Shown: one piece after another, positions 2,499 to 2,871 of the stretch | Position numbering within the stretch: position 1 is the first letter of the stretch | Layout: every line of letters begins with the position of its first letter | NCBI GenBank assembly: GCA_937944055.1 | Contig: CALDZJ010000013.1 | Coordinates: 1-64,000 of the forward strand | From: an uncultured Verrucomicrobiales bacterium | GTDB lineage: Bacteria > Verrucomicrobiota > Verrucomicrobiia > Verrucomicrobiales > Akkermansiaceae | DNA: 64,000 nt | Reading direction: 5' to 3' | Program-made: the position numbers and the translations under genes | The notes under the pieces: generated by a model | Database searches by the model: none | Seen by the model: the letters and a program-made list of their open reading frames with translations, nothing else | What the model was told of the DNA's origin: nothing

Positions 2499-2575
<77 letters not shown>

Positions 2576-2700: not shown

Positions 2701-2871
2701 TCAATTCTCCTCCCGCGCCCACATCTCTCCTTGCTCATCGACCATGAGCACTAAAGGACGTCAACATACAGCACAGTCGTAATCCAACTCTCCTCCAAAA
2801 TCCTCAGGACCCACCTGCGAAATTTCGAAAAATTCGCCGCATGACGGACACTGGATCTCTTGAGCGCTCAT
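2701..2871 (-). CDS. CPXCG-motif cysteine-rich protein with in-frame UGA: candidate selenoprotein
   Basis: Too short for the ORF track. From ATG at 2871 the minus strand encodes 36 residues containing CPSCGEFFE and ending DYDCAVC, then TGA (2763-2761). The same frame continues RPLVLMVDEQGEMWAREEN to a second TGA. Read through, it is a 56-residue protein matching the Cys_rich_CPXG family (PF14255) along its length: CPxCGE, an acidic middle, D-C-x-V-C-C-R-P, then V-D-E-x-G-E. The UGA sits exactly at the second Cys of the family's vicinal CC pair, giving Cys36-Sec37. A bacterial SECIS-like hairpin follows at the expected distance. Function of the family is unknown; the two CxxC-type pairs suggest metal binding or redox chemistry (inference). 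The start has a weak ribosome site, but no in-frame start lies upstream. The alternative is a pseudogene with a point nonsense mutation. Selenocysteine genes are not in this window, so the claim needs genome context. Confidence 0.78.
2728..2763 (-). promoter_or_regulatory. Putative bacterial SECIS element directly after the in-frame UGA
   Basis: RNA from the UGA reads: 10 nt, then a perfect 7-bp stem UGCUCAU/AUGAGCA closing the 5-nt loop GGUCG. The loop lies 17 nt after UGA. Below a UUAG bulge, UCCU pairs with AGGA for four more base pairs. E. coli fdhF has the same layout: a short upper stem about 11 nt past UGA, a GGUC-containing loop bound by SelB, and unpaired U. The match of position, loop sequence and bulge is seen directly; SelB recognition is inference. 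Confidence 0.75.

Follow-up and report, generated by a model that had tools for sequence, protein, structure and literature searches.

A window of 64,000 nucleotides (nt) from an uncultured Verrucomicrobiales bacterium (contig CALDZJ010000013.1) carries on its minus strand a 56-amino acid gene of the CPXCG family (PF14255, Cys_rich_CPXG) at positions 2701–2871. With high confidence, we predict that the in-frame UGA at codon 37 of this gene (2761–2763) is read as selenocysteine (Sec), as judged from the gene, the UGA itself, the selenocysteine machinery of the genome, a downstream hairpin, selection and orthology. On the best reading, this is a selenoprotein family not listed before, in which Sec sits next to the second knuckle of what is probably a zinc ribbon. 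Sec would be inserted by the standard mechanism; what is new is the addition of this family to the list of bacterial selenoproteins. Its Sec lies by a probable zinc knuckle and not in a thioredoxin-type fold.

The gene starts at an ATG (2871–2869), meets the in-frame TGA at 2763–2761 and ends at a second TGA (2703–2701), which terminates translation and provides an internal contrast to the Sec codon. Read through, it gives MSAQEIQCPSCGEFFEISQVGPEDFGGELDYDCAVCURPLVLMVDEQGEMWAREEN, with 19 codons between codon 37 and the terminal stop; orthologues of equal extent are found in 15 further genomes. Under translation table 11 alone, only a 36-amino acid open reading frame ending in DYDCAVC is obtained, and gene callers of the standard type would miss the gene or cut it short.

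With the TGA translated as Cys, the protein matches PF14255 at 31.0 bits (E 2.5e-7), above the Pfam gathering cut-off of 25.2 bits; the raw frame with the stop left in scores 24.1 bits, and the segment preceding the UGA scores 13.9 bits on its own. The difference between the whole and this segment indicates that the sequence on both sides of the UGA belongs to the family, as the initial annotation of this locus had proposed. In an alignment of 55 proteins, with TGA entered as C, the invariant residues are C7, P8, C10, D31, C32, C35, C36 and P38 (alignment numbering, which is protein numbering minus one). The UGA aligns exactly to C36 of the invariant C-C/U-R-P, at the second of its two vicinal Cys as that annotation had noted, and this column is Cys in all of the Cys-containing relatives aligned.

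The search for PF14255, which occurs across the phylum, covered 388 genomes from the phylum, 58 relatives and a 27-genome set for the genus of the window, composed of Akkermansiaceae/Verrucomicrobiales metagenome genomes. The tallies of TGA, TGC, TGT and stop codons come from a further search of 145 relatives with the family alignment, in which 119 genomes matched, each with a single copy. An in-frame TGA is present in 16 of these 119, all within the genus: among its 27 genomes, 16 have UGA, seven have TGC or TGT and four have no detected gene, so that UGA accounts for 16/23 of the gene-bearing members. No stop was found within the match in any of the 96 matching genomes outside the genus, and neither TAA nor TAG occurs at the internal site in any of the 119. 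In the reading-frame alignment all of the TGAs share one codon, C-[UGA]-R-P. Because 15 other genus genomes have TGA at the same codon, and never TAA or TAG, its presence is not due to chance. These 15 independent genomes also take the place of the resequencing that had been suggested as a check against a misread TGT or TGC. A hidden intact paralogue was considered and rejected.

To look for UGA forms beyond the genus, a DNA pattern was run against 84,980 species. Of its 40 matches, 15 have CPxC upstream and agree in number and sequence with what the other genus members should give; the remaining 25 look like chance. The pattern requires a CGN Arg codon, and members of the DCS type would escape it. 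One genus member that is 96% complete (G400) has selA and a TGA-containing selD with the CPXCG gene undetected; the gene may be dispensable there or may lie in an assembly gap.

The genome from which the window derives (2.59 Mb, 92% complete) contains all four genes whose absence would have spoken against Sec: the selC product tRNA-Sec (anticodon TCA), selA, selB and selD, the last of which itself has one in-frame TGA. In 22 of the 27 genus genomes, selD is matched over nearly its whole length and has one TGA. Every genome with the UGA form has either selA or a TGA-containing selD, and selA is found in 15 of the 16; in the remaining one, G409 (72% complete), it is the selD with TGA that is present.

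A feature that the initial annotation did not mention is a bacterial Sec insertion sequence (bSECIS) hairpin downstream of the UGA (2732–2750, minus strand). It has a 7-base pair (bp) stem (UGCUCAU/AUGAGCA) and a GGUCG loop (2739–2743), with the stem beginning 10 nt and the loop 17 nt past the UGA. The 55-nt fold has a z-score of -3.63, and none of 200 shuffled sequences was as stable. A published bSECIS model specifies a loop of 3–9 nt with G in its first two positions, a stem of 4–16 bp, a distance of 16–37 nt from the UGA and a minimum free energy of at most -7.5 kcal/mol (PMC13188914). The window hairpin conforms to this model (5-nt loop, 7-bp stem, GGUCG, 17-nt spacing, -9.3 kcal/mol). 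When the energy cut is loosened to -4, the model is passed by 15 of the 16 UGA forms, but also by 9/50 Cys forms outside the genus and 4/7 inside it, so that the simplified model is not specific by itself. RNAalifold returned this hairpin as the sole helix for the 15 distinct UGA-form sequences, and in one of these (L058) two stem pairs are altered on both sides with pairing kept. A search of Rfam found no SECIS-like family at the hairpin.

Given the weak covariation, synonymous constraint is the stronger evidence for the hairpin. Among comparisons in which the residue is the same, codon identity in the UGA forms is 87.6% at codons +5 to +9, versus 36% at codons +1 to +3 and 34% at +11 to +15; at +5 to +9 in the Cys forms it is 47% within the genus and 42% elsewhere. 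The Nei-Gojobori proportion of synonymous differences (pS) in the UGA forms is 0.16 under the hairpin, compared to 0.81 upstream, 0.49 in the four codons adjoining the UGA and 0.76 in the tail, and is 0.67 for the hairpin codons of the genus Cys forms. Val is encoded by GTC in 16/16 UGA forms versus 0/7 genus Cys forms. The hairpin codons are thus nearly frozen at synonymous sites in the UGA forms and not in the Cys forms of the genus. In three of the Cys forms (L059, L061 and L063), a weaker hairpin whose loop is GGUA lies just past the Cys codon, at the spacing of the SECIS of the UGA forms; it may be a relic of a former Sec state or merely shared sequence. In the selD gene of the window's genome (L021), the 48 nt from the TGA fold as two hairpins; the loop of the second is GUC, unlike the GGUC-type hairpin of the CPXCG gene.

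The sequence following the UGA is homologous to that of relatives, as had been predicted, and is constrained at the protein level: RP is kept and the ratio of nonsynonymous to synonymous differences (pN/pS) is 0.44. In an rpoB tree from which the suspect, long-branched row G403 and the partial row G399 were left out, a branch with 99/98 support separates the UGA genomes from the Cys genomes. This separation by a single branch suggests that there was probably one Cys/Sec exchange, kept since, and the presence of Cys in relatives outside the genus makes one Cys-to-Sec change inside the genus the simplest form of it. The simplest account is therefore a single exchange that was retained while synonymous sites became saturated. 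It had been proposed that UGA and Cys codons might alternate at this site: both do occur there, but in two clades that look to be separated by one exchange, not in repeated alternation. As to whether the UGA forms or the Cys forms make up a clade, the SelA tree was undecided (p-AU 0.40 and 0.28), as it was on the origin of the GGUA hairpin.

The gene neighbourhood is also shared. A similar-looking downstream gene, with matching ends and length, is found in most UGA members and several Cys members and is a family-2 glycosyltransferase in L077. tRNA-Pro(TGG), which in the window lies outside the selenoprotein gene at 2499–2575 (minus strand), is near the CPXCG gene in many members; in the window, L079 and L086 it follows that gene directly, without the glycosyltransferase in between. 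Neighbours common to the Sec and Cys forms are most simply explained if these are one gene, that is, orthologues, and the genus thereby provides matched Sec/Cys orthologues for direct comparison. The family-2 glycosyltransferase (L065:1657-2655 and equivalents in the genus) has a conserved C-terminus, DFWCCC, which is once DFWSCC.

In the proposed mechanism, SelB and Sec-tRNA-Sec would bind the downstream hairpin as the ribosome stands at the UGA, Sec would be placed at this codon, and translation would run on to the ordinary UGA stop. The two CxxC knuckles (C8, C11, C33 and C36), both invariant in the 55 proteins, probably bind a metal, likely as a zinc ribbon, judging from the motifs. Residue 37 occupies what we take to be the Gly position of a standard CxxCG knuckle. 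AlphaFold predicts a small beta protein (mean predicted local distance difference test score [pLDDT] 88, predicted template modelling score [pTM] 0.65), in which the strands past the UGA (38–43 and 49–53) are a confident part of the fold. A sequence search for related solved structures found none, and all Foldseek matches in the PDB were non-significant. A metal site is to be assumed with caution, as in one study of Haloferax C(P)XCG proteins zinc is described as present in only nine of the 14 that were purified (PMC11241148).

Four other accounts of the UGA and of Sec37 were weighed. That the gene is a pseudogene or a sequencing error, in which the UGA truly terminates or is TGC/TGT misread and what follows is a remnant, could explain one in-frame stop in one assembly; it is scarcely credible for a single-copy gene with TGA, never TAA or TAG, in 16 genomes from separate assemblies, with pN/pS below 1 past the stop, saturated synonymous sites before it and a hairpin under selection. 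Decoding as another amino acid (Cys or Trp), whether through suppression or through a variant code, would fit the Cys of the relatives, but UGA is also the final stop of this gene and of several orthologues, tRNA-Sec, selA and selB are present, and a variant code would not need the selected hairpin; we consider it very improbable. UGA recoding in general competes with termination, and the codon might act mainly as a selenium-dependent switch, with low selenium yielding a 36-amino acid form that is possibly functional in a distinct role. This form would retain both CxxC knuckles; however, it bears no sign of selection, and it would lack the confidently predicted strands beyond the UGA, which makes such a switch improbable.

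As for function, Sec37, after C36, would be the reactive group: a nucleophile, or a redox centre pairing with C36 or another thiol. Since Sec is accepted at an invariant Cys, position 37 is presumably reactive, and a Sec-based redox or metal-switch role is, from the motifs, tentatively favoured. The selection of Sec similarly suggests that the fifth Cys of the family is chemically reactive and not structural, offering a handle on the function of PF14255 proteins. A more speculative possibility, which we regard as somewhat unlikely, is that Sec37 tunes or gates the metal site, with oxidation (e.g. to a Cys36-Sec37 selenenylsulfide) releasing or rearranging the metal; if so, this 56-amino acid protein would be a selenium-based redox/metal switch of an undescribed kind. 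Slightly less likely still is that Sec37 is not redox-active but a ligand in a C/U-rich metal site (e.g. for Cu or Hg). Such a role would suit the five invariant Cys/Sec positions and the occurrence of CU motifs in the metal- or mercury-linked families SaoL, HgcA, MbdU and the 2Fe-2S/CopZ type (PMC13188914), but the identified neighbours (fumarase, DUF5069, a PEP-CTERM protein, a solute-binding protein and the glycosyltransferase) include no metal-resistance genes.

Several points weigh against the reading of this gene as a selenoprotein with a reactive Sec37. The 16 UGA forms probably represent one evolutionary event; formal covariation in the hairpin is modest, as the two pairs changed on both sides both come from L058; two UGA forms (L075 and L080) have weaker, bulged hairpins; and the metal and redox roles are inferred solely from motifs.

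The suggestion that this could be a new selenoprotein family has held up: a catalogue of prokaryotic selenoproteins from May 2026, which has 119 families, does not include PF14255 (PMC13188914). NCBIfam yielded no meaningful model match to the CPXCG selenoprotein. Text searches of the literature, which are incomplete in coverage so that an earlier report may exist elsewhere, found no prior report of a Sec-containing CPXCG protein, and likewise no selenoprotein report for this lineage.

Compared to the Cys-containing PF14255 members, the selenoprotein shares the family, the invariant residues and, in sister species, the gene neighbourhood; those members have a Cys codon and no hairpin under selection, whereas here there is a UGA and a selected hairpin. 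The best Foldseek matches are LysW amino-group carriers, also small two-knuckle beta proteins (TM 0.57–0.60, non-significant E 0.25–0.68). LysW has a C-terminal EDWGE that the CPXCG protein lacks, and membership of the LysW group is not claimed.

The FmdB family is of the zinc-ribbon type. Its selenoprotein (TIGR02605, UxxU; PMC13188914) is, like the CPXCG protein, a small CxxC protein with Sec at Cys positions. The two belong to different families, with no FmdB match for the CPXCG protein, and the substitution differs: in FmdB, Sec replaces both Cys of one CxxC, whereas in CPXCG it replaces the Cys after the second pair. The thioredoxin reductase tail also has an adjacent Cys-Sec, to which the initial annotation had likened this site; the pair is indeed adjacent here, while the analogy extends to a chemical comparison only. 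Vicinal Cys-Sec (CU) is further known from 2Fe-2S/CopZ form 2, SaoL, SaoC, HgcA, KCU-star and MbdU (PMC13188914). The adjacent pair is common to these and to CPXCG, but the families and folds differ, and in CPXCG the Cys of the pair also closes a CxxC knuckle.
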